NCBI GenBank assembly: GCA_014860355.1
Contig: JACZJV010000079.1
Location: forward strand, 1-40,637
Length of the DNA stretch: 40,637 bases
Direction of reading: 5' to 3'
DNA from: Burkholderiales bacterium
GTDB lineage: Bacteria; Pseudomonadota; Gammaproteobacteria; Burkholderiales; SG8-39
Positions 22,958 through 40,637 of this stretch are shown here, in pieces (position 1 is the stretch's first letter; every line of letters begins with the position of its first letter). The notes under the pieces were generated by a model. That model searched no databases. It was not told where the DNA came from and saw nothing but the letters and a program-made list of their open reading frames with translations. A program made the translations under genes and the position numbers.

Positions 22958-22961
22958 TGGC

Positions 22962-24278
22962 GTGGCTGCGCAACGCGCCATTGCCGCAGGCGTTTCTGTA
23001 TTGATGGCGTTTGCGGCCGCCATGGGAGTGCAGGCTGCGCCGCCACACGATCTCGATGACAACGGCCTTTATGCTCCAGGGGAACTGAGCGCGATCTACC
23101 GCCACTCCCCGCTCAAGCCCCTGCCCACCGTGACTGCCGGTCGCGTGACAGAGGACACGCGCGCCGCAAGGCTTGGGCAGTACTTGTTCTTCGAGCGGCG
23201 TTTCTCCGCCAATGGTGCCGTCTCCTGCGCGACCTGCCATGTTCCGGAAAAGGCTTTCGCTGATGCACGAAGGGTCGGCACCGGTCTTGCAGCGGGAGAG
23301 CGCAATACGCCGGGCCTGCTCAATGTCGCATTCGAGCGCTGGTATTTTTGGGACGGTCGCGCCGATTCGCTGTGGGCACAGGCGCTGGGGCCGATCGAGA
23401 ATGCCAAAGAATTCGGCGGTGATCGGCTCAATACGCTGCACCTTGTTGCCGAAGATGCGCCGTTGCGGCGCGCCTACGAGCTGGTGTTCGGACCACCACC
23501 ACCGCTCGGAGACGCCGAACGCTTTCCGCGCCATGCCTCTCCCGATTCCGCGCCTGGGTCCCCCGCTGCGCGTGCGTGGTCGGCGATGAGCCTCGCCGAC
23601 CGGGACGCAGCGAACCGGATGTACGCGAACCTGGGCAAAGCGATCGAAGCCTACGAACGCAAGCTGGTAGATGGCGATTCTGCGTTTGACCGCTATGTGG
23701 CGGCATTGAAAAGCGGCGACCGCGCCGGCCAGCGCGCGTATCCGGCGGCAGCCAAGCGCGGCCTCAAACTCTTTGTAGGCGCTGCGCAGTGCGAACTTTG
23801 TCACTCCGGGCCAAGCTTCAGCGATGGCGAATTCCACAACATTGGGCTGCCGCTACTCGCTGGCGAATCTGCTGACAACGGTCGCGCCGCCGGCATCGAC
23901 ATAGTGCGGGCGAGCGACTTCAACGGCATAGGACCCTACAGCGACCATCCTGAGGGCCGAGCGAAGGATCAACTCAGCTATCTGCCGCCGCCTGAGTCGC
24001 AGCTGGGCAGCTTCAAGACGCCCAATTTGCGCAACGTGGCATTGACTGCCCCATATATGCACGATGGAAGATTCGATACGCTGTCTGCGGTGCTCGATTT
24101 CTATGCGAAAGGCAGGGAGGCGAGCCGGGGACAGATGCTGCTGGGCGAACGGGAAGCGACGCTGGACCTCGTTCCACGCCTCTCTAGCGACCAGGCGGAC
24201 GATTTGACCGCGTTTCTCAACACGCTTACCGGGCGCGCACTACCCGCGGAATTGACGACGGCGCCGGGCGAGCCCTAG
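22962..24278 (+). CDS. di-heme cytochrome c peroxidase / MauG-like enzyme
   Basis: 438 residues, longer than classical CcpA (about 330) and nearer the long MauG/MbnH-type members. A signal peptide ends at about residue 25. Residues 30-41 (DLDDNGLYAPGE) match a 12-residue EF-hand calcium loop. Two heme sites are at residues 89-93 (CATCH) and 277-281 (CELCH), with YLFFERRFSANG before the first and TPNLRNVALTAPYMHDGRF after the second, all family hallmarks. The start is GTG 22962, beginning the signal peptide; an in-frame TTG at 22893 lies inside the previous gene. Paired with a His/Met-rich secreted protein, it may peroxidise or oxidatively modify that partner (inference). Confidence 0.92.
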   Translation: MAAQRAIAAGVSVLMAFAAAMGVQAAPPHDLDDNGLYAPGELSAIYRHSPLKPLPTVTAGRVTEDTRAARLGQYLFFERRFSANGAVSCATCHVPEKAFADARRVGTGLAAGERNTPGLLNVAFERWYFWDGRADSLWAQALGPIENAKEFGGDRLNTLHLVAEDAPLRRAYELVFGPPPPLGDAERFPRHASPDSAPGSPAARAWSAMSLADRDAANRMYANLGKAIEAYERKLVDGDSAFDRYVAALKSGDRAGQRAYPAAAKRGLKLFVGAAQCELCHSGPSFSDGEFHNIGLPLLAGESADNGRAAGIDIVRASDFNGIGPYSDHPEGRAKDQLSYLPPPESQLGSFKTPNLRNVALTAPYMHDGRFDTLSAVLDFYAKGREASRGQMLLGEREATLDLVPRLSSDQADDLTAFLNTLTGRALPAELTTAPGEP

Positions 24279-26228: not shown

Positions 26229-26793
26229 GGTGTCTCCTGTGTATTCGGTCATCGAGGAAGGTCTTGGGCGAAACCGGTACAGATCCCGCTCCGGCAGCCG
26301 GTCGCCACGCAGCCGGTAGATCCAGTGCGCCATCGTAGCGATGCGGGAAGGCGATCATCATTGACCACGGTCAATTTTGCCGCATCGAGTCTGCCACAGC
26401 CGGCTTCAACGCGGTCTCCCCGCGGTAGGGATCGCGGTGACTGCCTTCCCGAATTTGGCGCGGATCTGAACCCGACCCCTGTAGATCAAATGGCGCCGCG
26501 GCCGGCTCTGGTCGAGGGTTTCTCCCCATCGAATTAAGGGGCGGTCAGCGTAGTTCCTTATACAGGCTATGTCGTACTGACCTTATGCATGCCTGTAATT
26601 ACAGTCCATGTCTACGAAATGGCCGGGAAATGCCGGCGTGCAGGATGTTGCGCAGCGCGGGTGCACCGGCAGGCTCCAGGGAAGATCGTGACTTCGAATT
26701 TTTGCATAAATGGTTGAGGTGCTCTTGGAATACCCAATAGATGGCGGCTTTACGCATTCCCGACAGGGCGGATTCTGGCGCGGCAAGGGGATC
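26229..26793. other. 565-bp divergent intergenic region between oxc and the secretin gene
   Basis: No convincing gene on either strand. At 26361-26374 there is TTGACC-AC-GGTCAA, a 6-bp-arm dyad that could be an operator or a -35 element for oxc. The right half is less GC-rich and must hold the secretin promoter, but I see no consensus -35/-10 pair. Short ORFs here are antisense shadows. Confidence 0.4.
26361..26374. promoter_or_regulatory. dyad TTGACC-N2-GGTCAA, possible operator upstream of oxc
   Basis: Perfect 6-bp inverted arms 133 bp before the oxc ATG. The arm also reads as a -35 hexamer on either strand. A regulator is not identifiable. Confidence 0.25.
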
Positions 26794-29115
26794 ATGCTGA
26801 AGGTTCTGCTCCTGGCCGCGACGGTGGCCCTGCTGGCCGGCTGCGCTGCGCAACAGTTGCGCCAGGACGGACAGGCGCTGATCGAAGCGGGGAACTACGA
26901 GCAGGGACTGGCCAAGCTGGAGCAGGCGGTCAAGGCGGACGGGGGCGACGTCAGCCTCAGGATGAGCTTGTATAGCAACCGCGAGCGCGTGGTCGAGCAG
27001 CTCCTGGCAGCCGCGGAACAGGCGCGGGCGGCCGGTGACGTGCGCGGGGCCGAGGCCTATTACCAGAGGGCGCTGGTAATCGCGCCCCGCGATTTCCGCA
27101 TCATGGATGGACTGCGCCTCCTCGAGAAACGCGATGTGCATGCCGAAGTCGCCAAGCAGGCTCAAGCGGCGCTGACGGGCGGTGACCTGGATCAGGCCGA
27201 GGGTCTGGCTCAAAAGATCCTTGCCGTCGACCCCAGGCATGCCGGCGCCCTGGACGTGCTCGCCAAGGTGGAACGCGCGCGCGCGCGGCAAACCATGATA
27301 CAGCCCGAGCTCAAATCCCGCATCACCAAGCCGGTGAACCTGGAATTTCGCGACGCCAATATCAAAATGGTGTTCGACGCACTGTCGCGAACCAGCGGAA
27401 TCAACTTCATGCTCGACAAGGAGATCAAGAGCGATACCAAGATTACGATCTATGTGCGCAATATGGCGGTGGAGGACGCCATCGACCTGGCGCTGGTGCA
27501 GAGCCAGTTGCGCAAGAAAGTGCTGTCGGAAAACAGCGTGCTGATCTACCCGAACACGCCGGCCAAGCTGCGCGAATACCAGGATCTGCTCATCCGGACC
27601 TTTTACCTGGTAAACAGCGACGCCAAGCGCACCGCCGCGGCCTTGAAGGACATTCTGAAACTAAAAGATATGCACGTGGACGACCGGCTGAACATGATAT
27701 TCGTGCGCGACACCCCCGACACCATCCGCCTCGCGGAAAAAATGATCCGCAACCAGGACCTGGCCGAGCCCGAGGTGATCCTCGAAATGGAGGTGATGGA
27801 GATCAATCGCACCCGCGCAATCGAGCTGGGGGTCAGCTGGCCGGATACCTTCACCTGGCTGGTGCCCGACCCGACGAATATCACCCTGGACCAGCTGCCG
27901 TTCGGGCAGCCGAAGAGCCGCGACCGCATCGGCGTAAACGCCACCATGGCCCTGAAAATGAAGCAGGACAACAGCATCGCCAACCTGCTGTCCAATCCGC
28001 GCATCCGGGTGAAGAACCGGGACAAGGCCAAAGTACTGGTGGGCGACCGGGTGCCCATCATCACGGCGACGGTCACGCCGGGATCGACCAATCCGGTGAC
28101 CACCGAAAGCATCAGCTATCTGGATGTAGGCCTGAAGCTGGAAACCGAGCCCACCGTGCTGCTCGACGGCGACGTCAGCATCAAGGTGGCGCTCGAAGTC
28201 AGTACCCTGGGCGAACGGGTGGAAACCAAGAGCGGTTCGGTCGCCTATCGGGTCGGCACGCGCACCGTTTCGACCTCGCTGCGCTTGCAGGATGGCGAAA
28301 CCCAGGTCCTCATGGGCTTGATCCGCGACGAGGAGCGCAATAGCGCCAGCGGGGTGCCGGGACTGGTGGACCTTCCGGTACTGGGACGCCTGTTCTCCGT
28401 TCCGCACGACCAGACGGAAAAGACCGAAATCGTGCTGTCGATCACGCCACGCATCGTACGCAATGTGCGGCGGCCGGAAGCGCATGATATGGAGATCTGG
28501 TCGGGCACCGAGGCCAGCATGCAGTCCAGAAAACCCGTACTGCACAGCGCGACGGCGTCCAAAGTCTCCTTGGTACAGCCGCTCGCGCAAATCCCGCACA
28601 TTCCGGTGCGGGACCCGGGCGCGGACCAGGCAGCCACGATCTATCGGAACCCGCAGGAAACGACCCCGGCGAAAAAGCCCGTTCCCGGCCAGCCCCTGCA
28701 ACTGAGCTGGAGCGCGCCCGAGGGTGCGCGCGTGGGTGAGCAGTTCGTCGTGGGCATAGAGGCGGACGCGCCATCTGCGCTGATGAGCGCGGCCATGTCG
28801 CTCAGGTTCAATCCCGAAGCGCTGGAGGTGGTGAAAGTCGAACAGGGTGAACTGTTGCAGCAGGCGGGGGCGAAAACGGAATTCAATCATACCGTGGACC
28901 CCGGGAGGGGGCGCATAGCGCTGAGCCTGGCGCGTCCGGCACCCGATGCAATTCAGGGCAAGGGTCGCATGTTCAAGCTGACGTTCAAGGTGCTGGCCGA
29001 GACCCCAAGAACCCAGGTGCAGGTGACCAGCGTGTCTCCCGTGGGGCCCGACGATGCCCCTGTCGCCTTCGGCCTGAGCGGCCCGCTGTCGCTGTCGCTG
29101 TTGCCTAAGCCATGA
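26794..29115 (+). CDS. lipoprotein secretin (GspD/PilQ superfamily) with TPR-like N-terminus and cohesin-like C-terminus
   Basis: 773 residues from ATG 26794 (AAGGGG just upstream). Lipobox LLAGC (Cys about residue 17) gives an outer-membrane lipoprotein. Residues 25-170 are helical TPR-like repeats. About 185-260 is a secretin N0/STN domain (VNLEFRDANIKMVFDALSRTSG) and 265-340 an N1 domain (FYLVNSDAKRTAAALKDILKL). The pore domain, about 345-575, has VILEMEVMEINRTRAIELGV, NLLSNPRIRVKNRDKAKVLVG, SYLDVGLKLETEPTV and GVPGLVDLPVLGRLFS...EIVLSITPRIV. About 650-770 is cohesin-like (VGEQFVVGIEADAPSALMSAAMSLRFNPEALEV). No other type II secretion gene is in the window. Its stop overlaps the next start (ATGA), tying it to the cytochrome gene. 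Confidence 0.9.
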   Translation: MLKVLLLAATVALLAGCAAQQLRQDGQALIEAGNYEQGLAKLEQAVKADGGDVSLRMSLYSNRERVVEQLLAAAEQARAAGDVRGAEAYYQRALVIAPRDFRIMDGLRLLEKRDVHAEVAKQAQAALTGGDLDQAEGLAQKILAVDPRHAGALDVLAKVERARARQTMIQPELKSRITKPVNLEFRDANIKMVFDALSRTSGINFMLDKEIKSDTKITIYVRNMAVEDAIDLALVQSQLRKKVLSENSVLIYPNTPAKLREYQDLLIRTFYLVNSDAKRTAAALKDILKLKDMHVDDRLNMIFVRDTPDTIRLAEKMIRNQDLAEPEVILEMEVMEINRTRAIELGVSWPDTFTWLVPDPTNITLDQLPFGQPKSRDRIGVNATMALKMKQDNSIANLLSNPRIRVKNRDKAKVLVGDRVPIITATVTPGSTNPVTTESISYLDVGLKLETEPTVLLDGDVSIKVALEVSTLGERVETKSGSVAYRVGTRTVSTSLRLQDGETQVLMGLIRDEERNSASGVPGLVDLPVLGRLFSVPHDQTEKTEIVLSITPRIVRNVRRPEAHDMEIWSGTEASMQSRKPVLHSATASKVSLVQPLAQIPHIPVRDPGADQAATIYRNPQETTPAKKPVPGQPLQLSWSAPEGARVGEQFVVGIEADAPSALMSAAMSLRFNPEALEVVKVEQGELLQQAGAKTEFNHTVDPGRGRIALSLARPAPDAIQGKGRMFKLTFKVLAETPRTQVQVTSVSPVGPDDAPVAFGLSGPLSLSLLPKP

Positions 29116-30059
29116 ACGTACACGAGCGCGTGGCGGGCGCAATGCCGCGCCTGCGGAGGCTTGCTGCCTGCTGTCTGGCAGGTGCGTTGTCCAGCGCGAT
29201 TCTGGGCGCTTACGCTGCCACCGCCTTCGACGCCATAGCGCCGATTTTCGCCCAGCGCTGCGTGATGTGCCATAACGGCGATGCGGCGCCGCTGGGTCTG
29301 CGTCTGGACTCGCTGGAGAACGTACTCAAGGGCAGTCAAAAGGGCGCGGTGGTCAAGTCGGGCGATCCCGATGCGAGCGAACTGGTGCGGCGCATCCGCG
29401 GGCAGTCGCAGCCGCGCATGCCGCTGACCGGCCCACCCTTTCTCGGCGCGGACGAAATCGCGCTGATCGAGAACTGGGTAGCCGGAGGTCTGGTGGCCGG
29501 AACTGGCGCCGCTAAGCCGTCGCAGCCGGACCGGCCCAAGGCGGGCGAGGCTGTCACCTACCTGCACGTGGCGCCGATATTGCTGCAACGCTGCGCCAAA
29601 TGCCATGCGGCGAACGGTCTCAAGGGCGCGCCGCCGGAGGGCTACCGGCTCGACACCTGGGAGGAGACGATCGCGCGCGCCGACCGCCTGCGCGTGGTGC
29701 CGGGGAACCCGGCTGCGAGCGAACTCGTGCGGCGCATACGCGGACAGGCCTTGCCGCGCATGCCCTTCGACGGACCTCCGTATCTCGCCGAGGAGGACAT
29801 CCTGCTGATCGAGCAATGGATACGTCAGGGTGCCCGCGATGCGCAAGGCAAGCCCGCGCCTGCGCCTGCAGGCGCCTCCCTGCGGCTGCACGGCACACTT
29901 AACAATATAAACAACACCTGGGAACTGGACGGACTGCCCTTAAGCGTGGACGCGGCCACGCGCATCGATAAACGGCCCGGGCCCGGCGACTATGTGGAAG
30001 TGCGGGCCACGGTGCAGCGCGATGGCGCGGTGCGTGCGAACCGCATCCGGCGGCGCTGA
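29112..30059 (+). CDS. two-heme c-type cytochrome with C-terminal DUF5666-like domain
   Basis: 315 residues: a signal peptide (ending near ILGAYAATA) and two related heme modules, CVMCHNGDAAPLGLRLDS and CAKCHAANGLKGAPPEGYRLD. Each is followed by a near-identical SELVRRIRGQ...PRMP...GPP block and an acidic segment ending in IENW or IEQWI. The modules are of the Planctomycete cytochrome C type and look like an internal duplication. The last 60 residues (LRLHGTLNNINNTWELDGLPLSV ... VRANRIRRR) resemble DUF5666. The ATGA overlap with the secretin gene implies co-translation. Placed before the giant multicopper oxidase, it could take electrons from metal oxidation; the known mof cluster also includes a c-type cytochrome (MofC). 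Confidence 0.88.
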   Translation: MNVHERVAGAMPRLRRLAACCLAGALSSAILGAYAATAFDAIAPIFAQRCVMCHNGDAAPLGLRLDSLENVLKGSQKGAVVKSGDPDASELVRRIRGQSQPRMPLTGPPFLGADEIALIENWVAGGLVAGTGAAKPSQPDRPKAGEAVTYLHVAPILLQRCAKCHAANGLKGAPPEGYRLDTWEETIARADRLRVVPGNPAASELVRRIRGQALPRMPFDGPPYLAEEDILLIEQWIRQGARDAQGKPAPAPAGASLRLHGTLNNINNTWELDGLPLSVDAATRIDKRPGPGDYVEVRATVQRDGAVRANRIRRR

Positions 30060-30073
30060 TGACGACCATGGAT

Positions 30074-30211
30074 AGAGGGGTCAGCCCCCTCTACAAGATT
30101 GAGTCTGACCGGAGAGAGGGGTCAGACCCCTATACAAGAATGAGTCTGACCGCACGAGCCTATACTATTAGAAGGGGTCTGACCCCTAGAATTGAAACGG
30201 GTCTGACCCGT
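30074..30211. repeat. tandem and inverted GGGGTC-N-GACCCC repeats
   Basis: Units 30074-30110 and 30115-30151 match at 34 of 37 positions (period 41) and end in GAGTCTGACC. Palindromes are AGAGGGG-N5-CCCCTCT (30074-30092), AGGGGTC-A-GACCCCT (30117-30131), the same with central T (30173-30187) and ACGGGTC-T-GACCCGT (30197-30211). Arm changes are compensated, so the palindrome itself appears conserved. Confidence 0.8.
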
Positions 30212-30308
30212 CAAAATCCGCGGAATGCCCGGCTGGGGCAGAAGACCCGATTTTTGGGGATTACACCCATCGTCTTTCCGTCGCAGCGCGTAGCGCTCTG
30301 CGGTTTTG

Positions 30309-30375
30309 GGGGAATTCACCAGGAATTTACCCACCATCGGGGAATTTGCTCCCCAGCATTGGGGAATATTCACCA
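30309..30375. repeat. GGGGAAT-type repeat set
   Basis: Three closely spaced copies: GGGGGAATTCACC, CGGGGAATTTGCTCCCC and TTGGGGAATATTCACC. GGGGAATTTGCTCCCC is self-complementary at its ends. On the minus strand the CCCC(A/G)ATGNTGGG core resembles the junction repeats at 22089-22200. Confidence 0.55.
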
Positions 30376-30438
30376 CCAAAGCCGGGTTCAGGTGTGGCAA
30401 ATGACACAGTCGGTGGGTCAAAAAACCCCAATGCCGGC

Positions 30439-30453
30439 AGGTGCTTGGCACCT
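30439..30453. repeat. AGGTGC-TTG-GCACCT hairpin
   Basis: Perfect 6-bp arms with a 3-nt loop, 148 bp before the oxidase ATG. It may be part of the same mobile repeat array or a leader hairpin. Confidence 0.4.
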
Positions 30454-30600
30454 AAATACCCATGTGGAAGCGAATTTGGCATGGTCCCTGCACCTAGGCG
30501 GTGACTGCGTTCCGCGCCCGGTTTCGGTGGCGGCGCGGCTACTTGGGTTTTCGCAGGCACTACGAACAGCATTTCGAACACTAGATTGCGGGGAGTAAAA

Positions 30601-33600
30601 ATGGATCTCAAAAACGGTAAGCGCGGCAACAAACCATTGCCAGGCACGGCGCATCTGCAACAGGCGCTGGCGCTGGTGGGTCTAGCGGCGGCGCTGGTCG
30701 CTGCACCTGCGCATGCGTCCATCACCTGCGAGCGGCAGATCAGCGCCGACGTCGTGGTGATCGACAAGCCTTTGATGTTCAACCGGCTGGGTGCCACCAA
30801 TGTGAACGGCATGATGTACGCGCTCAAGCGCGACGTCATCAATACCTCCAGCCTGCTGCCGCTGAGCGCCGGCGGCGCCGCGATCCCGGGGAAACTCGAC
30901 CTGCGTCCGGACAAGCGCCACCGCCCGCTGGTTTTGCGCGTGCGCCGCGGCGATTGCCTCACCGTCAACCTGCAGAACCTGCTCACCCCGCTGGCCAATC
31001 CGCTTACCGAGCAGGCTGGCAACCCGCTGGTGGAAGGACCGCTCGAAGGGACACAGGTCATCAGCCTGACCGAACCTTCGGGGCAGTTGCACACCGTCGC
31101 CGTCGACGAGCAGACCAAGGGTCGTTTCGTCGGCTTCCATGCTTCGGGCATGCAGCTCGTCAACAGCATGGCCGACGACGGCAGCAAGACCGGAAACAAT
31201 CCGGGCAGCTGGGCGCCCGTGGGCGGCAGCCACAGCTACACCATCTATGCCGAGCATGAAGGCGTGTTCAACGTCACCAGCGGCGGCGCGGTGGTCGGCT
31301 CCGACGGATTGCAGGGCGCCAGCTCCAACGGCCTGTTCGGCCAGCTGATCGTCGAACCCAAAGGCGCGAAAATCTACCGCGGCCAGGTGTTCGAAGAGGA
31401 CATGCGTCTTGCCGCCGACGCCAACTTCAACGGCGTGCTCGATGCGGCCGAACTCACCTCCACCGGGCAGCCGCGCGTCAACTACGAAGCGACCTATCCA
31501 AATGTCGCGCCGTGGACCACCGAGGGCAAAGCCGGCACGCCCATCCTCAACATGATGCGCTGCACCTCCAGCGCCGCCTGTGAGATCGTGCACTCGGAGA
31601 TCAACGCAGTGATCGCCGGCCCCAATGCCGACGGCAGCTTCCCGCCCAGCACCTACCCGCTCGAATCGGTGGGCAAGCGCAATCCCTCGGTGCCCAACCG
31701 CCTCGAGGCTTTCCGCGATTTCGCCTCGGTCTACCACGACGAGACCGCCGCCGGCCAGGCCTTCCCCGGCTACTTCGTCAAGGACCCGGTGTTCCGCTAT
31801 GTGCTCGCGGGGGTGAAAGACGCGTTCATGATCAACTACGGCTCGGGCGGCATCGGTGCCGAAATCATCGCCAACCGCCTAGGCGTCGGTCCCACCAGCG
31901 ACTGCGGCGACTGCGCCTATGAAGAGTTCTTCCTGACCTCCCACGCCCTGAACGACCCGGCGCTGACCGTGGACATCCCGGCGAACCTGGGACTGGAGAG
32001 CCTGCTCCCGGGCCAGGTGCCGCCCGCCGGCACCCTGGGACCGAAAGCGAACTACGTCATCGGCGCGGAAGACGCAGCCAACGTACATCACAGCTATATC
32101 GGCGATTTCGTCAAGTTCCGCAACAGCCACATCGGCAAGGAACAGCACGTGTTCCACCTGCACAACCACCAGTGGCTGTACAACCCGAACGACGACAACT
32201 CCAACTATCTGGACGCCCAGGGCGTAGGGCCGGGCGCGGGCTACACCTACGAAATCAACTTCGGCGGCTCCGGCAACCGCAACAAGTCGGCCGGGGACGC
32301 GATTTTCCATTGCCACTTCTATCCGCACTTCGCCCAGGGCATGTGGGCACACTGGCGCAACCACGACGTGTTCGAGGCCGGCACCCGGCTGCTGGCTTCG
32401 GGCGCGGCCTACCACGCGAGCGCATGGGCGCTGGGCAACACCACGCCGGCGCCCGGATCGCGCGCCTACCCCGACGGCGAGATCGTCGCCGGCACGCCGA
32501 TCCCCGCCACGGTGCCCCTGCCCGGCAAAGCCCTGGCGGTAATGCCCGGCTCCGTGCAGGTGGTGCAGAGCCCCTACAACTCCCCCCTGAACGGCAAGCC
32601 GCTGGGCTCGCTCGCCAAGGTCAACAATCGCAAAAAGAACCCGGGCTACCCGTTCTGGATCGCGGGCATGGAGGACTCCATCGGCCATCGTCCGCCGACG
32701 CCGCCGCTGGACATGCTGACCAAGGCCAAGGCGCAGGCGCTCAAGGACTCGGGCGATCCGCTGTGGTCGCAGCTGCAGCCGGAGCAGGCCGCAGGCTTCG
32801 ACGGCGGACTGCCGCGCCATACCCTCAAGGGTTACTCCGCGGGCACGGTGACCCACACGACAATCTCGCGCCTGGACTTCTCCAAGGATATCGAGGCGGC
32901 GGAGCCGGTGTACTACCCCGAGGAAGGCACCGATCTCGAGCAACTGGCGATGAAGTTCCACTCGAAACGCAATCACAAGACCACGAAAATCGACCTCGCC
33001 GGCAACGCCGAGCCGGCAATGTTCATTACCAACGGCAGCGGTGGTCCGGTGGTGGGCGCGCCTTTCCACAACCCCTGCATCGACGACAAGGGTAACGTCC
33101 TCAAATCCGGGGTGGTGGGCAAATTCTTTTCCGGCGAATCACTGGACGGGATGAAGACGCGTGGCTCGAGCATATTCAACTCCGACACGCCGCGCATCTA
33201 CAAGGGCACCAACCTGCAGTTCGACGCAGTGCTCAGCAAGACCGGCTACCACTTCCCGCAGGAGCGCATCGTCGCGCTGTGGCAGGACGTCGCGCCGGTG
33301 ATCAGCAAGCAGAAAGCGCCCGAACCCCTGGTGATGCGCATGAACACCTTCGACTGCACCATCTATCACCACAGCAACCTGGTGCCGGAGTACTACGAGA
33401 TCGACGACTTCCAGGTGCGCACGCCCACCGATATCATCGGCCAGCACATCCACCTGCCGAAGTGGGACCTCACCACCACTGACGGCTCGGCCAACGGCTG
33501 GAACTACGAGGACGGCACCATGTCGCCCGGAGCGATCCGCAGCCGCATCAACGCCATCCGCAACTTCAATGCCTGCACCGCGAACGATGCGCGCAACGGC

Positions 33601-36549
33601 ACGGGCGCCTGCCCGGTCGCGGCCGAACATCCGTACTGGAGCAAGGTGGCCAGTCAACTGGGCGGGCGCTTCCCCGAAGAGTTCCTGGGTGCGCGCACGA
33701 CCATGCAGCGCTGGTTCGCCGACCCGGTGGTCAACACCGAGGGCGTGGACCGCGGCCTGGGCATCATCTTCACCCACGACCATTACGGTCCCTCGACCCA
33801 CCAGCAGGTCGGCCTGTACTCGACCGTACTGGCCGAGCCGGCCGGTTCGCGCTGGGTGATGAACGAGACCGGCCAGCAACTGGGCTACGATCCGGTGACC
33901 GGCGCACCCGCCCGCACCGACACCCTGGCCGACGGCACGGTGTTCAGCGACGGCGGTCCGACCAGCTGGCAGGCGGCTATCCTTACGCCGGACGCGGCGC
34001 CGGGCGGCAGCACGGTGAAAAGCGAAGCGCTCCAGCCCTATCGCGAGTTCTACATGGAGTACAGTGACTTCCAGCACGCCTACGAGGCCGGCGTGTATGT
34101 AGGCACCGGCCAGGACGGGATCCGACTGGAGGGCGCAGGCGCGGGCCTGCCGCCGGTGGCGCACAACGCGGGCAACCCGCTGTTCGACGGCAGCACGACC
34201 AATGCCTTCCGCTTCGCCATCAACCCGCCGGCACGCCTGGAGCCCAGCCAGGTGTTACCGGACTTGGTGCTGGAAGTGGCGAACACGCAGAACGATCCCT
34301 TGAACAACTTCTGCCCGTCGCGCCCCTGCCCGCAGGCGATCAGCGTGTCCGATCCGGGCGTGCTGGTGGCGAATTACCGCATGGAGCCGGTCGCCCTGCG
34401 CGTCTACGATCCGAACAAACTCGGTCCGGACGGCAAGCCGGGCATGCAGGCCGACGGCTTGCCGGGGGATCTCGCCTACGCACTGCAGTCGCGCACCGAC
34501 CGCGTGATACCGGAACTCAACGTCATGCCCGACGGCAATACGGTGATCCACGGCACCAAGTTCCCGCCGCATATCAACGCGGCCGGCTATGGTCCCGGCG
34601 ATCCGTACACGCCGATGATGCGCACCTATGCGGGCGACACCGTACGCGTGAAAATGCAGGCCGGCGGCCATGAGGAAGAGCACAACGCCAGTATCCACGG
34701 CCTCAAGTGGCTGCAGGGCGGCTCCGGATTCGGCAAGGCGCCCAACTCCGGCTGGCGCAATTCCCAGGCCGGGGGCATCTCCGAGCAGTTCACGCTGTCG
34801 ACTCCGGTGCTGCCGGCGGACCAGAACCGCGGCCCGCTGGCGGACTACGTCTACAGCATGGATTCGGACATGAGCGGCTGGTGGAGCGGGACCTGGGGGA
34901 TACTGCGCTCCTACGAAGACTTGCGCGCCGACCTGTTCCAGCTTCCCGGCGCCAGCGCCGGACCGGTGAAAATCAGGAACAAGCTCGATTTCAACGGCGT
35001 CTGCCCGGTCGGCGCGCCGGTGCGCTCGTATTCGATCACGGCCATCCTTGCCAACGACCTGCTGGAACCGGTGCTAGGCGTCACTGTCGCCCCCACGGGC
35101 CCGGTAGGCACCATGCATGTGGGCGCCCAGGTCGATCCGCAGGGCGGCACGCTGGTGTACAACCCGCGCAACACCTCGGTGGCGGGCAACTTCGTCATCG
35201 ACGAAACCGGCCAGTCGGTCAGCCTGGTGCATCAGGGTCCGCTGCACGATCCCACCGCGATCGTGTACGTGAATACCGACGACATCACTACCAAGAAGGT
35301 CGGCCAGGGCAAGGGCAAGCTCAAGCCCGGGGCCGCGCTCGAGCCGGTGGTGATACGCGCCGCGGCCGGCGACTGTCTGCAGATCACACTGAAGAACGCA
35401 CTGCCTGAGGTAGTCCCCGACCTGGCCACCTACACCACGCTCCTGGGCGTGGCCAAGCGCGACCGCTTGAGCCCCGAGGGTTCGACCACGTTCAACATGA
35501 ACCTGATCCGCCCGTCGAGCTATGTGGGCCTGCACCCGCAGCTCGTCGCGCTCGACGTCACGCGGGACGACGGCCGCATCGTGGGCGCCAACCCGGAGCG
35601 CCGCCAGCTCGCGGCTCCGGGCAAGAAGACGGTCTATGAATGGTACATGGGCGACCTTGGTGGCACGCCGAAAAATGGCAAGGTGGACCTCGTCGCCACA
35701 CCGGTCGAGTTCGGCGGCGCCAACCTGTTCCCGGTCGATGTGATCAAGCAGGGCGCCAAATCGCTGGTCGGCGCGCTGGTGGTCCACCCGCAAGGCTCGA
35801 CCTGGGTGGAGGACACGCAGGTGCTCGATCACCAGAACGGTGTGGGCACGCGTGCGACCCATGCGCAGGCGACGGTCACTGCAGGGACCGAAACCTTCCG
35901 CGACTTTTCGCTGGTGCTGACCAAGGGCAATACCCACTACTACCGCGATGGATCGCCGGTCGAGCACATCAACGGCGAAGGCGTGGGCACGCCCGAGGAC
36001 AGCCAGGAAGCCACCGGCATGGCGCTCAACTACGGCATCGAACCGCTGTGGTTCCGCATGGGCATCCTGCCGCAGGCGCCCTTCGGCAATGCCGGCTGCC
36101 AGGGCGGTTGCTACGGTGCCATGGCCAGTGTGGACTCGGCCTTCAGCAACGAGCTCAGCGGCGGGCAGGACCCGGCAACCCCGGTGTTCCAGGCCAACCG
36201 CAACCAGCAGACGCGGATACACATCACCAATCCTAGCGGCACCAGCCGTGGTTCCACCTTCACCCTGCACGGGCACTCGTGGCAGCGCGATCCCTATGTC
36301 TGCCCGACCGAGGCGCGCAACGGCCTGACCGGTGCCTGCGAGATGAATACGGTGGGCTCGCGCGCCCTCGGGGTGAATCCGCAAGGCTTCGAAACCGGCG
36401 GCCAGGAAAGCTGGACTCCGTACAGCCATTTCGACATCCTGCTGCCCAGCGCGGGCGGCGGAAACGGCGTGACCGGGGATTATCTGATGCGCGACCAGGC
36501 TTCGTTCGGCGCTGCCAGCGGCGTCTGGGGCATCATGCGCGTCAAGTAG
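30601..36549 (+). CDS. mofA: giant secreted multicopper oxidase, MofA/MnxG-type (putative manganese oxidase)
   Basis: 1,982 residues, several times the size of a laccase. A signal peptide covers about residues 1-40 (ending AAPAHA). HxH copper motifs visible are HLHNHQW (519-525), HCHFYPHFAQGMW (570-582), QHIHLPKW (948-955), FTHDHYGP (1057-1064) and TLHGHSW (1888-1894), plus HNASIHGLKW (1361-1370). The HCHxYPHFxxGMW block is the mark of MofA/MnxG-like proteins. An EF-hand-type loop lies at 273-284 (DANFNGVLDAAE). Two distant blocks around GDCL (117-120 and 1590-1593) show internal duplication. ATG 30601 has GGGGAG 5 nt upstream; a longer TTG call from 30586 is rejected. It sits among cytochrome, propeller and SCO genes. 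Multicopper oxidase is certain; Mn(II) as substrate is inferred. Confidence 0.93.
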   Translation: MDLKNGKRGNKPLPGTAHLQQALALVGLAAALVAAPAHASITCERQISADVVVIDKPLMFNRLGATNVNGMMYALKRDVINTSSLLPLSAGGAAIPGKLDLRPDKRHRPLVLRVRRGDCLTVNLQNLLTPLANPLTEQAGNPLVEGPLEGTQVISLTEPSGQLHTVAVDEQTKGRFVGFHASGMQLVNSMADDGSKTGNNPGSWAPVGGSHSYTIYAEHEGVFNVTSGGAVVGSDGLQGASSNGLFGQLIVEPKGAKIYRGQVFEEDMRLAADANFNGVLDAAELTSTGQPRVNYEATYPNVAPWTTEGKAGTPILNMMRCTSSAACEIVHSEINAVIAGPNADGSFPPSTYPLESVGKRNPSVPNRLEAFRDFASVYHDETAAGQAFPGYFVKDPVFRYVLAGVKDAFMINYGSGGIGAEIIANRLGVGPTSDCGDCAYEEFFLTSHALNDPALTVDIPANLGLESLLPGQVPPAGTLGPKANYVIGAEDAANVHHSYIGDFVKFRNSHIGKEQHVFHLHNHQWLYNPNDDNSNYLDAQGVGPGAGYTYEINFGGSGNRNKSAGDAIFHCHFYPHFAQGMWAHWRNHDVFEAGTRLLASGAAYHASAWALGNTTPAPGSRAYPDGEIVAGTPIPATVPLPGKALAVMPGSVQVVQSPYNSPLNGKPLGSLAKVNNRKKNPGYPFWIAGMEDSIGHRPPTPPLDMLTKAKAQALKDSGDPLWSQLQPEQAAGFDGGLPRHTLKGYSAGTVTHTTISRLDFSKDIEAAEPVYYPEEGTDLEQLAMKFHSKRNHKTTKIDLAGNAEPAMFITNGSGGPVVGAPFHNPCIDDKGNVLKSGVVGKFFSGESLDGMKTRGSSIFNSDTPRIYKGTNLQFDAVLSKTGYHFPQERIVALWQDVAPVISKQKAPEPLVMRMNTFDCTIYHHSNLVPEYYEIDDFQVRTPTDIIGQHIHLPKWDLTTTDGSANGWNYEDGTMSPGAIRSRINAIRNFNACTANDARNGTGACPVAAEHPYWSKVASQLGGRFPEEFLGARTTMQRWFADPVVNTEGVDRGLGIIFTHDHYGPSTHQQVGLYSTVLAEPAGSRWVMNETGQQLGYDPVTGAPARTDTLADGTVFSDGGPTSWQAAILTPDAAPGGSTVKSEALQPYREFYMEYSDFQHAYEAGVYVGTGQDGIRLEGAGAGLPPVAHNAGNPLFDGSTTNAFRFAINPPARLEPSQVLPDLVLEVANTQNDPLNNFCPSRPCPQAISVSDPGVLVANYRMEPVALRVYDPNKLGPDGKPGMQADGLPGDLAYALQSRTDRVIPELNVMPDGNTVIHGTKFPPHINAAGYGPGDPYTPMMRTYAGDTVRVKMQAGGHEEEHNASIHGLKWLQGGSGFGKAPNSGWRNSQAGGISEQFTLSTPVLPADQNRGPLADYVYSMDSDMSGWWSGTWGILRSYEDLRADLFQLPGASAGPVKIRNKLDFNGVCPVGAPVRSYSITAILANDLLEPVLGVTVAPTGPVGTMHVGAQVDPQGGTLVYNPRNTSVAGNFVIDETGQSVSLVHQGPLHDPTAIVYVNTDDITTKKVGQGKGKLKPGAALEPVVIRAAAGDCLQITLKNALPEVVPDLATYTTLLGVAKRDRLSPEGSTTFNMNLIRPSSYVGLHPQLVALDVTRDDGRIVGANPERRQLAAPGKKTVYEWYMGDLGGTPKNGKVDLVATPVEFGGANLFPVDVIKQGAKSLVGALVVHPQGSTWVEDTQVLDHQNGVGTRATHAQATVTAGTETFRDFSLVLTKGNTHYYRDGSPVEHINGEGVGTPEDSQEATGMALNYGIEPLWFRMGILPQAPFGNAGCQGGCYGAMASVDSAFSNELSGGQDPATPVFQANRNQQTRIHITNPSGTSRGSTFTLHGHSWQRDPYVCPTEARNGLTGACEMNTVGSRALGVNPQGFETGGQESWTPYSHFDILLPSAGGGNGVTGDYLMRDQASFGAASGVWGIMRVK

Positions 36550-36564
36550 GCAGCAAGGCAGGAC

Positions 36565-36588
36565 TTGCGGCGGCGCAAGCTGCCGCAA
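36565..36588. repeat. small hairpin after the oxidase stop
   Basis: TTGCGGC / GCCGCAA arms with a 10-nt loop. An alternative CTTGCG / CGCAAG pairing overlaps it. It lies just before the stronger terminator hairpin. Confidence 0.35.
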
Positions 36589-36591
36589 TGG

Positions 36592-36621
36592 TGCGAACGG
36601 GTGGGTGACCACCCGTTCGCA
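36592..36621. terminator. strong hairpin between the oxidase and propeller genes
   Basis: Perfect 13-bp arms (TGCGAACGGGTGG / CCACCCGTTCGCA) with a GTGA tetraloop, extendable by GU pairs into TTGT. It lies 43 bp after the oxidase stop and 130 bp before the next ATG, so the oxidase may be transcribed separately or with partial read-through. Confidence 0.6.
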
Positions 36622-36751
36622 TTGTCACAACTACCGGACCGTGGTGCGGGCGAACGAGGGCAGGACTGAGCCGCGATCCGGGGCGCATTTCAGCTGTGCG
36701 CGGCAGCAGGCCAGCGTGCCGCGTTGCGATTAACTAGGCGGGGACAATGAA

Positions 36752-38713
36752 ATGAAAATGAAGGCAAAGACGGGTTCTTTCTGCTTGGGTGCAGCGCTGG
36801 CCTTGTGTCTGGGCACCGCAGTCGCGGCAGGGCAGGGCGCGCCGGGGAAGGCGGGCGATGAGCAACGGCTTGCACGCCACGGCGTGGTGGTCGATTTCTC
36901 GGCCAAGCCGGTGGATTCGGCGCAGCACGAACTCATGGAGGGCAGCTTTGCCGAATTGCGCTTCAAGATCGTCGACGAGGCCAGCGGCCAGCCGCTCAAG
37001 GGCATCGCGCCCGGCGCGTGGATGGACATGGCGCAGGTGATCCAGAACCGCGAGGGCGGCGAGCAGAAAAGCTGCAAGGACAAGGTCGCACTCTATTTGC
37101 GCGGCGCGGTGGGCATACGTCCGATGCTCGACCTGAACAGCTATTTCGTGGTGCTGATGAACCGGGACGCGAGCATTTCGGTGGTGGATCCGCTCATCAC
37201 CATGGCGGGGACGACCAGCACTTACGCCACCACTCCGATGAAGCGACCCGGAGCGGACTGGGTCAATCACCAGAACACGCGGCGCCTGTTCGTGACCATG
37301 CCCAGGGCGAACGAGGTGGCGGTGATCGAGACCGACAATTTCAAGCTGGAGCGCTACGTGCCGGCGGGCAAGGAGCCGACGCGCATCGTGCTGCAGCCCG
37401 ACCAGCATTATCTCTGGGTGGGAAACAACGCCGCTGATGCCAAGTCCAGCGGCGTGACGGTGATCGACGCGACGAACCTCAAGCCGGCGGGCTTTGTCGC
37501 CACCGGCGCCGGCCATCACGAGATCGCGTTTTCGCCCGACAGCCGGCTGGCCTTCGTCAGCAACCGTGACAGCGGCACGGTATCGGTCATAGACGTGGCG
37601 AGCCGCAGCAAGCTGAAGGACATCAAGAGTGGTGCCGCGCCGCTCGCGCTGGGCTACTCGGCGCTGTCGCGCATGCTCTACGTGTCCGACGGCAAGGACG
37701 GCACTGTCGCCGTGATCGACGGCGCCAAGCTCGAAGTGGTGAAGCGCCTGAGCGCGAAGCCCGGACTGGGGCCGCTCAAAATCACGCCGGACGGACGCTA
37801 CGCGCTTACCGTGAACACCGCCGAGAACCTGGTGTACGTGCTCGACACCGCGAGCAACGAACTGGTGCAACAGATTGCGATCAACGCCCAGCCCTATCAG
37901 ATCGCGTACAGCGAGACCTATGCCTATGTGCGCTCGCTCGGCTCCGAACAGGTCAGCATGATCAACCTTTCCACCCTGGGCAAGGGCAAGTCCGCGTCGG
38001 TGCAGAAGATCGCCACCGGCACCTCTGCACCCAAGCTCGCGGGCGATCTGCCGATCGCCGACTCCATGGCCTCGGCCGTGGAGGAGGGTACCGTATTCGT
38101 GGTCGACCCGGTCGACGGCACCACCTACTATTACCGCGAGGGCATGAACGCGCCTTCGAGCAATTACCGCGTGTACGGTTCGAGCGCGCGCGCGGTGACG
38201 GTGGTGGACAGGAGCATCAAGGAAGTCGAGCCCGGTGTCTATGCCGGACGCGTGCGCATACCCGTGGCGGGCAAGTACGACGTGGCCTTCATGCTCGAAA
38301 GTCCGCAGATCCTGCATTGCTTCACCGCGGAGGCGAAAGCCGATCCGCTCCATGCCAAGGACCAGGACCAGGCCGTGCTCGAATTCGAACACTGGCCGCA
38401 TACTGCGAAGGCCGGCGAGGCGTTGAAGCTGCGCTTCAGGCTGCGCGATCCGGCGACGGGCAAGCCGAAGGCCGGCGTCAAGGACGCGCAGGCGATGTAT
38501 TACCTTGCGCCCGGCTCGCAGCGCACCCAGGTCGCGGCCCGGGAAATCGGCGGCGGCGTGTACGAGATCGAGGTCAAGCTGGCGCAGCCCGGCGCCTATT
38601 ACGTCTATGTGGCCGTGCCCTCGATGAAGCTCGGTTTCGACAAACTGCCGTTTTTCTCGGTACGGGCGGTGGCGCCTGGCGAGAAGCAGAGCGCGGTCGC
38701 CAGGGCCGGTTGA
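36752..38713 (+). CDS. periplasmic YVTN/YncE-type beta-propeller with C-terminal Ig/FixH-like domains
   Basis: 653 residues: signal peptide (about 1-26), an N-terminal beta domain (45-120, with EQKSCKDKVALYLRG), then a seven-bladed-type propeller about 130-420. The propeller has repeated blades such as SYFVVLMNRDASISVVDP, RLFVTMPRANEVAVIETD, LAFVSNRDSGTVSVIDVASR, LYVSDGKDGTVAVIDGAKL and ALTVNTAENLVYVLDTASN. It resembles YncE and the d1-heme domain fold, but I see no CxxCH. Two beta-sandwich segments follow (about 440-530 and 535-640: YAGRVRIPVAGKYDVAFML and AGEALKLRFRLRDPATGKPKAGVKD), like FixH/YtkA modules. Start ATG 36752 with GGGG upstream. A partner or scaffold role for the oxidase is inferred from position. 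Confidence 0.85.
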   Translation: MKMKAKTGSFCLGAALALCLGTAVAAGQGAPGKAGDEQRLARHGVVVDFSAKPVDSAQHELMEGSFAELRFKIVDEASGQPLKGIAPGAWMDMAQVIQNREGGEQKSCKDKVALYLRGAVGIRPMLDLNSYFVVLMNRDASISVVDPLITMAGTTSTYATTPMKRPGADWVNHQNTRRLFVTMPRANEVAVIETDNFKLERYVPAGKEPTRIVLQPDQHYLWVGNNAADAKSSGVTVIDATNLKPAGFVATGAGHHEIAFSPDSRLAFVSNRDSGTVSVIDVASRSKLKDIKSGAAPLALGYSALSRMLYVSDGKDGTVAVIDGAKLEVVKRLSAKPGLGPLKITPDGRYALTVNTAENLVYVLDTASNELVQQIAINAQPYQIAYSETYAYVRSLGSEQVSMINLSTLGKGKSASVQKIATGTSAPKLAGDLPIADSMASAVEEGTVFVVDPVDGTTYYYREGMNAPSSNYRVYGSSARAVTVVDRSIKEVEPGVYAGRVRIPVAGKYDVAFMLESPQILHCFTAEAKADPLHAKDQDQAVLEFEHWPHTAKAGEALKLRFRLRDPATGKPKAGVKDAQAMYYLAPGSQRTQVAAREIGGGVYEIEVKLAQPGAYYVYVAVPSMKLGFDKLPFFSVRAVAPGEKQSAVARAG

Positions 38714-39187
38714 GTCCGGCCGCAGGATTCGATCGCGAAAACAGCCCGAGGCCGGCGCGCAAACGACGCGGATAAGCACCGTCGCGCGTCCGACAGCATC
38801 CGGTGATGCCTCAGGCAGCACCGGTTGCAGTTCGAGCCGTAAGGCGCAATTGCGCTTAAACCCGCAGTCCGCCCTTGCGCAAGCTGCAGCCCTCTACAGC
38901 GTACCCTGCAGTGCGGATGGAGTCCTTGCCGCTGCGGGGAATGCGGGCTAGGCCCCAGTGCAATGCGGGCCCGCGCCCACTACGCTAGGCCTACTTATTT
39001 TGAAGCGATGATTCGTTCGCAACCGAAGGCCTTGTTCAAGTCTGTCTGCACAATTTCCGCGACCGGGCATGCCATTGCGCTCAGCCCGAACCTGCGCCGC
39101 CGCATTGGTGCAGACACCGTCATTAGAACCTATCGCCGCATGCTGGCCGCTTCCAGCCTTCGGCGAATTTCCTGAGAGCCCATCACC
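38714..39187. other. 474-bp gap between propeller and first SCO gene
   Basis: No convincing gene; a 70-residue ORF at 38963-39175 lacks family features. At 38844-38855 there is the perfect 12-bp palindrome GCGCAATTGCGC, flanked by TAAG and TTA. The right half is less GC-rich and may hold the promoter of the two SCO genes. Confidence 0.4.
38844..38855. promoter_or_regulatory. 12-bp palindrome GCGCAATTGCGC
   Basis: Perfect dyad with TAAG on the left and TTA on the right, 333 bp before the first SCO gene. It may be a regulator site; the regulator is not identifiable. Confidence 0.25.
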
Positions 39188-39886
39188 ATGCCATTGCCGA
39201 CTATGTATGCCGACCCGATTCATCCGCTGACTGCGGCGAAGGCGCGCCATGCGAAAAGGGCTTTGGCCGCGTTCGCGGGGCTGGCGCTGGCCCTGGCCAT
39301 GCCCGCTGTCAGCGCGCACCAGAATCATGCCCACCCGGCCCAGCACGCGGAAGCTGCCCAGGCCGCCGGCAAAATGCAAATCAAGGTTCCCGACACCGTG
39401 CTCACCGACCAGAACGGAAAGTCGCTGCGCTTGCGGACGGAGGCGATGGCCGACCGGCTGGTGGTGATCAATTTCGTCTATACGAGCTGCTCTACCGTAT
39501 GCCCGGTGCAGTCCGCGCTGTTTGCCGACCTGCAGCAGCGGCTGGGCGAGCGCGCGGGCAGCGAGGTTGCGCTGATTTCGGTGACGGTCGATCCGCTGCG
39601 CGACACGCCCGCGCGGCTGAAAGAGTTCGCAGCAGGCTACGGCGCCGGTCCGGGGTGGAGCCTGTACACCGGCAGCAGCCAGGCGGTGGACGAAGTGCTG
39701 AAGGCGTTCGACGCGTATACGGCGAACTTTACCGAACATCCGCCGGCGGTGCTGGTCGGCGATCCGCGCAGCGGCGCATGGGTGCGCTTTTTCGGTTTTC
39801 CGAGCACCGAGCAGATCCTCGGCAGGATGAAGGAACTCCAGGCCGCACGCCAGGGCCTGCCTCCTGCCCAGGCAAAAGCCGGCTAG
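39188..39886 (+). CDS. SCO-family copper-delivery / thiol protein (copy 1)
   Basis: 232 residues. The N-terminus has a hydrophobic signal or anchor (LAAFAGLALALAMPAVSA) and a His-rich start of the mature part (HQNHAHPAQHAE). The thioredoxin-like SCO domain has the copper motif as YTSCSTVCPVQ (CxxxCP), SVTVDPLRDTPARLKEFA, and the distal His ligand in FTEHPPAVLVGD. SCO proteins load copper into CuA-type sites or act as thiol reductases in the periplasm. Start at ATG 39188 or 39203 is uncertain. It is followed after 34 bp by a second SCO gene. Copper supply to the multicopper oxidase is the contextual inference. Confidence 0.9.
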   Translation: MPLPTMYADPIHPLTAAKARHAKRALAAFAGLALALAMPAVSAHQNHAHPAQHAEAAQAAGKMQIKVPDTVLTDQNGKSLRLRTEAMADRLVVINFVYTSCSTVCPVQSALFADLQQRLGERAGSEVALISVTVDPLRDTPARLKEFAAGYGAGPGWSLYTGSSQAVDEVLKAFDAYTANFTEHPPAVLVGDPRSGAWVRFFGFPSTEQILGRMKELQAARQGLPPAQAKAG

Positions 39887-39920
39887 CGCGTTCGAACAAC
39901 CACTGAATCGGAGAGACATA

Positions 39921-40580
39921 ATGCGGCAGCTTTTTCTGGCGGTATGTACGGCATTCGCGCTGCTCGCGCCGTCCGCTTTCGCGCACAAGGACGCGCACCC
40001 GGGCGCAAGCCCGCAGGCGCAGGCGGCCAAGCCTAAAGCGGTTGCAGCCGGGACGCGCGATCCCAGGGCCTATTTCACCGACACCCAGCTCGTGAACCAG
40101 GATGGCAGGAAGGTCCGCTTCTATACCGACATGCTGAAAGACCGGGTGGTGGTGGTGAACGTGATGTACGCCAACTGCAAGGAAGCCTGTCCCCTGATTA
40201 CGCGCCAGCTGACCGAGGTGAAGGACGAATTGGGCGAGCTGTTCGGCAAGACGGTGTTCTTTGTCTCCATTACCAGCGACCCGGTGCGCGATACCCCGCC
40301 CGCGCTCAAGCGCTTTGCGCAGGAGCAGCACGCCGACGCGGCCGGCTGGAGCTTTCTCACCGGAAGCAAGGAAAACGTCGACGGCATACTGCAGCGCCTG
40401 GGCGCGCTGTCGGAGAACGTCGAGGAACACGCCACCGTGCTCTACATACTCGACGTAGACAACAAGCGCATGAGGCGGATGCTGCCCAATCTGCCGCCCA
40501 AGGCGATAGCCGAGGCCGCGCGCATTATCGCCACCGCCGACAAGCGCGTCGCCTCGGCCGCGGCGCCGGTGCGCGATTGA
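39921..40580 (+). CDS. SCO-family copper-delivery / thiol protein (copy 2)
   Basis: 219 residues with a signal peptide (ending SAFA) and mature start HKDAHPGAS. The SCO domain has NVMYANCKEACPLITRQL (CxxxCP), FFVSITSDPVRDTPPALKRFA and the distal His in VEEHATVLYILD. The ATG at 39921 has GGAGAG 6 nt upstream. It diverges clearly from copy 1 around the Cys motif (CKEAC versus CSTVC), so this is not a recent duplication. The two probably handle different steps (metal transfer versus disulfide reduction) or different client sites. Confidence 0.92.
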   Translation: MRQLFLAVCTAFALLAPSAFAHKDAHPGASPQAQAAKPKAVAAGTRDPRAYFTDTQLVNQDGRKVRFYTDMLKDRVVVVNVMYANCKEACPLITRQLTEVKDELGELFGKTVFFVSITSDPVRDTPPALKRFAQEQHADAAGWSFLTGSKENVDGILQRLGALSENVEEHATVLYILDVDNKRMRRMLPNLPPKAIAEAARIIATADKRVASAAAPVRD

Positions 40581-40591
40581 CGGCGCAGACC

Positions 40592-40621
40592 CGGGCGCGC
40601 ATGCAGGCCTGCCCGCGTTTT
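40592..40621 (+). terminator. terminator after second SCO gene
   Basis: CGGGC / GCCCG arms with an inner GCAGGCCTGC dyad are followed by CG and TTTT. It starts 12 bp after the SCO stop and is the only terminator in the window with a clear U-tract. Confidence 0.5.
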
Positions 40622-40637
40622 GCGGCGCCCGCGGAAG

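Follow-up and report, generated by a model that had tools for sequence, protein, structure and literature searches.

A MnxG-type multicopper oxidase locus in a Burkholderiales bacterium with a candidate export secretin of its own

Bacterial manganese oxidation still poses the question of how a giant folded copper enzyme gets past the outer membrane. The question is raised by a locus at the end of a 40,637-nucleotide stretch of DNA, the window, from a Burkholderiales bacterium (GenBank assembly GCA_014860355.1, contig JACZJV010000079.1), where a secretin gene and a cytochrome gene stand directly upstream of the gene for a 1,982-residue multicopper oxidase. The locus is real, and most of it corresponds to an operon already described in another host; what it adds is the secretin. 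In our judgment, it probably encodes a MnxG-type metal oxidase with an export pore of its own, through which a presumed Mn(II) oxidase would reach the cell surface. The window is contig C125 of a 5.09-Mb genome in 202 contigs (G000). An initial annotation described six same-strand genes, the secretin gene overlapping the cytochrome gene. This description was accurate, as all six open reading frames (ORFs) are open on the + strand, and the secretin stop overlaps the cytochrome ATG by 4 bases (ATGA). The features of the locus are as follows.

26794..29115, + strand: secretin gene (Pfam, tree)
29112..30059, + strand: diheme cytochrome c gene (Pfam)
30477..30492, + strand: possible sigma-54 -24/-12 site TGGCATGGTCCCTGCA, weak, 108 bases 5' of the oxidase ATG
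30601..36549, + strand: MnxG-type multicopper oxidase gene, 1,982 amino acids (NCBIfam and PDB matches)
36752..38713, + strand: YVTN beta-propeller gene with a YtkA-like end domain (TIGR02276, PF13115)
39188..39886, + strand: SCO1/SenC protein 1 gene (Pfam PF02630, 2.1e-21)
39921..40580, + strand: SCO1/SenC protein 2 gene (Pfam PF02630, 5.9e-19)

The oxidase and its operon

The oxidase matched the NCBIfam model for MnxG (NF041487) with E = 0 and 2,462.6 bits across model positions 1-1893 of 1894. Since this score lies below the equivalog cut-off of 3,100 bits, we refer to the protein as MnxG-type and not as an MnxG equivalog. The Ramlibacter homolog (2,453 bits) likewise falls below the cut-off, and that of Pseudomonas putida strain 17522 (3,922 bits) lies above it. 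The oxidase also matched PDB entry 9bxa (chain named MnxG; 5.7e-68), which we take to be the Bacillus enzyme. The two are homologous and have an identical order of copper motifs (C-D-A-B), although the alignment is remote and in pieces. All four copper motifs of MnxG are present in the window protein, with every putative ligand in place. The 12 residues concerned (H516/519/521, H570-C571-H572-H576-M581, H949/951 and H1059/1061) are invariant in 88/88 long ORFs, partly by construction because the ORFs were picked by two motifs and the scan of the genome collection used one of them. The HCH motif reads HCHFYPHFAQGM in the window oxidase and HCHLYPAFGIGM in MnxG of 9bxa; at residues 570-581 (32308-32343) the window protein carries the canonical second histidine, HCHFYPH...M, where the 9bxa alignment has HCHLYPA...M. 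The leader of the oxidase appears to be Sec-type; here and below, signal peptides and leaders were judged by eye, without a prediction program.

In a tree of 33 oxidases, the window protein is sister to that of Ramlibacter monticola (SH-aLRT 100%), and its identity to Pseudomonas homologs is about 53%. Within a sample of the order, 8/399 genomes gave a strong mnxG match (E < 1e-50) and 12/399 gave any match, the window's own genome counted. Of 13 further genomes from the genus, several of which are incomplete, only G008 has the oxidase; we used this related genome for comparison throughout. The locus is therefore patchy in its distribution. Tandem copies of giant oxidase genes also occur, with three consecutive genes in Pseudomonas schmalbachii (L121) and two in a gamma-proteobacterial metagenome-assembled genome (MAG; L054).

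The contig, and with it the window, ends 57 bases 3' of the second SCO gene. In G008, the next gene (L047:2-1153) has its counterpart, 93% identical, at the very start of contig C108 of the window genome. In its product, weak NCBIfam matches mark a cytochrome c domain and, after it, an ABC-type substrate-binding domain; a SurA/parvulin-like isomerase gene comes next, and then, on the opposite strand, a gene that looks GlnE-like by eye. Judging from the arrangement in G008, C125 and C108 would adjoin, and the operon would continue with two more genes. Table 4 of PMC11409713 gives the mnxG operon of P. putida GB-1 as mnxG, YVTN propeller, SCO, SCO, ABC-binding/cytochrome c and SurA, and a figure legend in PMC8218464 lists the same kinds of genes as the six-gene mnxG order. 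The window joined to C108 on the pattern of G008 has this order. Because of this match, four of the six window genes represent a known operon in a new host, and the core operon is not new.

The six genes of the initial annotation were checked for joint conservation. We surveyed the best 80 of 430 stretches that encode an oxidase relative, obtained by a pattern scan of the genome collection, with flanks up to 10 kb. The propeller gene lies downstream of the oxidase gene in 75/80 loci and two SCO genes do so in 69/80. Of the other 11 loci, eight reach the end of their DNA, L121 has its SCO genes farther along (L208), and in L057 and L124 two SCO genes were not found in the DNA covered. Within these flanks the secretin was present in 2/80 loci and the diheme cytochrome in 1/80. 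Co-conservation thus held for the propeller and the SCO pair and, as described below, for the linkage of the secretin, and failed for the diheme cytochrome, which is rare near mnxG. Among the loci examined, this cytochrome lies near mnxG only in the window's genus (G008), in G415 (L183) and in Ideonella (L051). It has two CxxCH motifs (CVMCH and CAKCH), a Pfam PSCyt1 domain (1.3e-19) and a DUF5666 tail (6.6e-8), and no solved relative was found in the PDB at E 0.01.

The propeller matched TIGR02276 (beta_rpt_yvtn; 1.9e-27) and PF13115 (YtkA; 2.5e-6). Its AlphaFold model has a mean pLDDT of 82, and the best PDB match is the YVTN propeller 1l0q. We also considered whether it could be a copper protein like nitrous oxide reductase, which it matches in Foldseek across most of its length at about 10% identity. 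Its score against the L-NosZ model is weak (81.5 bits; cut-off 700). A Cu_Z site comprises seven histidines, and only three (H255, H256 and H522) are invariant in 20 propeller sequences, so this candidate was rejected.

Linkage of the secretin to mnxG

The secretin ATG at 26794 lies inside a longest ORF that starts at 26710, and it begins a lipoprotein-type leader ending in LAGC. The protein has Pfam Secretin (1.5e-37), Secretin_N (3.3e-9) and C-terminal Cohesin (6.7e-12) domains and an N-terminal TPR, and STN is just below the cut-off. Its score against the GspD model TIGR02517 is 143.9 bits, below the equivalog cut-off of 351; the secretin domain itself is clear. In the secretin tree, the window and G008 proteins are sister to the secretin of the Ramlibacter mnx island (support 100). 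The oxidase and the secretin of the window thus have the same nearest kin outside the genus. A second secretin of G008 is closer to the mnx-linked set (97) than are other standalone secretins.

To see how often such a secretin accompanies mnxG, we ran a profile of three of them over 37 entries, representing 36 distinct genomes with a mnxG-type gene (L040 and L053 are apparently one). The best secretin lies near the oxidase gene on the same contig in 27/36 genomes. It is on a contig other than that of the oxidase in G428, G429 and G436, and in G456 it likewise lies away from the oxidase contig, next to genes for SCO, cytochrome, isomerase and propeller proteins. Only weak secretin matches were obtained in Anaeromyxobacter oryzae and in a marine MAG, and the MAG has GspE, F and G genes beside mnxG. 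The secretin is more than 0.7 Mb from mnxG in G213 and G049 and on another contig in G303.

We then examined co-occurrence in 199 Pseudomonas genomes, drawn evenly, using an eleven-row secretin profile whose Pseudomonas rows came from mnx-linked secretins (one of these rows, G449, is in the sample). The mnxG gene was present in 59/199 genomes, in all of them with a score over the cut-off. Secretin scores fell into two peaks: 60 genomes reached at least 1,024 bits, 11 scored 445-495 bits and the rest had no match at E 1e-60; presence was taken as the upper peak, a line set after viewing the scores. By this measure, the secretin occurs in 59/59 genomes with mnxG and in 1/140 others (G618), with a Fisher P of 2.8e-50 that is uncorrected for ancestry. 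The two genes share a contig in 54 of these genomes, 10.4-12.3 kb apart in 53 and 181 kb apart in one (G558), and lie on different contigs in five.

The picture is broader in the window's own order, where the secretin type was found in 138/399 genomes (E 1e-60), mostly without mnxG. Of the eight strong mnxG carriers in this sample, all but G201 have it. We therefore rejected the idea that this type is confined to mnxG carriers; in the order, it is a widespread machine with an mnx-linked subset. In all likelihood, the secretin of the window belongs to the mnx locus and points to a private exporter.

Type II secretion-like machines and the split arrangement

Clustering of ORFs from 22 mnxG loci revealed recurrent GspE-, GspF-, GspG- and PilM/N/O-like genes together with a lytic transglycosylase and regulators. 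We extended this to 33 islands, adding further DNA where needed and excluding G213, G303 and G049. A complete machine (GspF, G, E, M, N, O, a secretin and at least two pseudopilins) is present in 21/33 islands, one of them (L050/L184) only if its two contigs are taken together. A secretin is found in 31/33 islands and the cytochrome c/ABC-binding gene in 33/33. In P. putida 17522, Pfam identified T2SSF, T2SSG, T2SSE, PilN, T2SSM_b, SLT, N-methylated pseudopilin and CsgG domains; the PilM-like and PilP-like genes of this strain had no Pfam match at E 0.01. Homologs of csgE, csgF and csgG directly follow the pseudopilins in 21/22 Pseudomonas islands (e.g., L180:6136-7847). All three occur together in 0/11 islands from other genera, some of which are incompletely covered, and none had a match in the window, C108, C15 or C123 stretches. 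These surveys suggest that giant MnxG-type oxidases are often accompanied by a type II secretion machine of their own. A second such machine is encoded in Ramlibacter monticola (E, M, N, O, secretin, pseudopilins, F, G; G427 contig C1, L213 and L236), with its own MnxS/MnxR-like pair and a SCO gene.

No platform genes (GspE, F, G, M/N/O-like or pseudopilins) were found in the window, where the secretin stands without a machine beside it. Elsewhere in the same genome, contig C15 carries the genes G-F-E-M-N-O and then ends. Contig C123 carries pseudopilins and, farther along, an MnxS-like kinase (43%) and an MnxR-like sigma-54 regulator (60%; the next-best MnxR match in the genome is 50%), as well as further two-component genes. 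Another multicopper oxidase gene begins on this contig and is cut by its end (L233:3-1241, - strand); the product is CotA/bilirubin-oxidase-like, and its leader looks Tat-like by eye. In G008, a second secretin lies between the O-like and pseudopilin genes on one contig, and a C-terminal piece of such a secretin stands at the end of C123. We take C15 and C123 to be adjacent and the system to be divided between two loci, with two secretins in all. The GspE of C15 falls outside the main mnx clade (Ramlibacter, Aromatoleum and Pseudomonas; 99) and groups (87) with the mnx-linked GspE of bin90, G428, G415 and Caldimonas and with three standalone GspE proteins. Given this mixed group, a platform shared between the two loci is best regarded as putative.

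A possible sigma-54 site precedes the oxidase gene. Across mnxG loci, a -24/-12 motif with 11-12 of 12 consensus bases lies upstream in 54/73 loci, compared with 0/73 in-gene controls; the loci are mostly from related Pseudomonas, start sites are approximate, and 15/88 rows were dropped for strand, a missing anchor or short upstream DNA. The window site has 10 of 12 bases, a score reached by 6/73 controls, and the relatives score lower (G008, 9; Ramlibacter, 8; Ideonella, 8; a Burkholderiales MAG, 7; bin90, 4). The pattern is not above chance in the window alone (46 matches versus 85 in shuffles). The comparison thus supports a predicted sigma-54 site before mnxG in Pseudomonas and Aromatoleum; in the window, such a site is not clear and can be called only possible. 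No sigma-70-like promoter was found in 26300-40637, where shuffled sequence would give 2.1. PMC11409713 reports a prediction that MnxR of GB-1 depends on sigma-54, and control of the window locus by the MnxS/MnxR-like pair is putative.

A gap of 541 bases separates the cytochrome and oxidase genes. With this spacing and the possible weak sigma-54-like site, the oxidase may form a transcription unit separate from the secretin-cytochrome pair. The gap contains an ORF of 179 amino acids (30059-30598, + strand) without a Pfam match, which may be a gene; G008 has a similar open frame. Upstream of the locus, the DNA presumably holds mostly housekeeping genes and looks unrelated. What we take by eye to be an oxalyl-CoA decarboxylase-like gene adjoins the locus on the opposite strand, and beyond it, at 22343-24278 (+ strand), lie a small gene and one that presumably encodes a MauG-like diheme peroxidase.

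Proposed function, alternatives and known systems

We propose that the oxidase would enter the periplasm by its Sec-type leader, fold with the help of the SurA-like isomerase encoded on the next contig, receive copper from the two SCO proteins and be exported through the secretin, as part of a type II secretion-like machine. Once at the cell surface, it would convert Mn(II) to Mn(III/IV), passing electrons via its own copper sites to O2. The platform (GspE/F/G, PilM/N/O-like proteins and pseudopilins) would be supplied in this genus by the second locus, beside the MnxS/MnxR-like pair. The propeller and cytochromes, like the SCO proteins, would have their roles in this pathway. Several observations weigh against the proposal. 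Mn(II) oxidation by this organism is a prediction from its genes, the oxidase falls short of the MnxG equivalog cut-off, and its sigma-54 site does not outscore the best controls. The mnx-linked secretins do not form a single clade (4 changes on the tree), the secretin type is widespread in the order, and no linked secretin was found in Anaeromyxobacter oryzae, the marine MAG, G213, G303 or G049. The Pseudomonas co-occurrence ignores shared ancestry, and its profile was built from mnx-linked secretins. In addition, the platform locus of the genus has its own secretin and another multicopper oxidase, so the platform may serve this CotA-type oxidase.

We weighed three other explanations. The secretin and cytochrome genes could be chance neighbours, with the secretin serving some other trafficking system and the oxidase leaving by the secretin of the resident type II system. 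The frequency of the secretin type without mnxG in the order, the second secretin among platform genes in the genus and the 541 bases between the cytochrome and oxidase genes would all fit. However, the nearest kin of both secretin and oxidase outside the genus lie in the same Ramlibacter mnx island (100 for each), the secretin is linked to mnxG in 27/36 genomes, and the arrangement is retained in G008; we regard chance association as unlikely, though credible. Alternatively, the locus might work in the same way on a different substrate, the oxidase being a ferroxidase or a general surface oxidase that acts on Fe(II), phenolics or Cu(I). The branch it shares with Ramlibacter scores below the MnxG cut-off (2,462 and 2,453 bits; the P. 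putida strain reaches 3,922), any Mn specificity of its residues is putative, and PMC11412304 leaves undecided whether the related MofA oxidizes Fe or Mn. An operon order that matches GB-1 mnxG, an MnxR-like regulator in the genome, and unchanged putative copper residues and gene order argue for Mn(II), and another substrate seems to us rather improbable.

The initial annotation had offered the secretin as either an export or an electron-conduit component. A conduit of secretin, cytochromes and propeller, carrying electrons inward from extracellular metal, would account for the overlap of the diheme cytochrome and secretin genes and for the cytochrome c/ABC-binding gene in every island. Secretins are protein-export pores, however, and multicopper oxidases reduce O2 themselves. 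The secretin is accompanied by GspE, F, G and pseudopilins, and the diheme cytochrome is rare near mnxG (1/80). We consider a conduit highly improbable and retain the export half of the suggestion: the secretin most plausibly belongs to a type II secretion-like machine.

In Pseudomonas, the tight coupling between mnxG and a single secretin gives a candidate exporter that could be tested by single deletions in a laboratory strain, and the split form in the window would be a natural test of cargo choice by secretins. More speculatively, mnxG loci may be portable oxidase-plus-exporter cassettes, of which the window would be a stripped form. Its cargo-specific secretin would dock on the resident type II platform, which a second multicopper oxidase, CotA-type and with its own secretin, would also use; swapping secretins would select the cargo. 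We offer this only tentatively and think it doubtful.

Our search of the open-licence literature found no paper joining mnxG to a full type II secretion cluster. Several known systems nevertheless resemble the locus in part. OmpB of Geobacter is reportedly exported by an atypical type II system. Like the window locus, both OmpB and mofABC of Leptothrix involve an extracellular or outer-membrane multicopper oxidase of very large size, accompanied by a gene for an isomerase, a cytochrome and/or a SCO protein. The mofABC description of PMC8218464 gives MofB as an isomerase of the Mip type and MofC as a cytochrome encoded separately, and it names no propeller. The window genome instead has a SurA/parvulin-like isomerase and a cytochrome fused to an ABC-binding domain. 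The initial annotation had left the oxidase as MofA/MnxG-type; the giant MnxG family stands, by model match and gene order, and we dropped the MofA assignment on gene content and the MnxG model match, a comparison made without a MofA sequence or tree.

Closer parallels come from P. putida. The Gsp-related Xcm genes of GB-1 described by de Vrind in 2003 are said to be xcmT1/xcmS and xcmT2/T3/X with csmEFG. In P. putida 17522, mnxG is flanked by a pseudopilin/GspF pair on one side and by pseudopilins beside csgEFG homologs on the other, a layout that fits these genes. An exporter role for the secretin would join the older genetics of the Gsp-related pathway with an oxidase gene that seemingly lies between those genes. 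A citation of de Vrind 2003 in PMC3056050 attributes a part in GB-1 Mn oxidation to general secretory pathway genes. Unlike the Xcm pathway, the window has the secretin alone beside mnxG. The mnxG operon of GB-1 is of the same oxidase family and has the same gene order as the window plus C108, and an MnxS/R-like pair is present in the window genome. The window differs from it in having a secretin and a diheme cytochrome directly upstream and its platform genes elsewhere.

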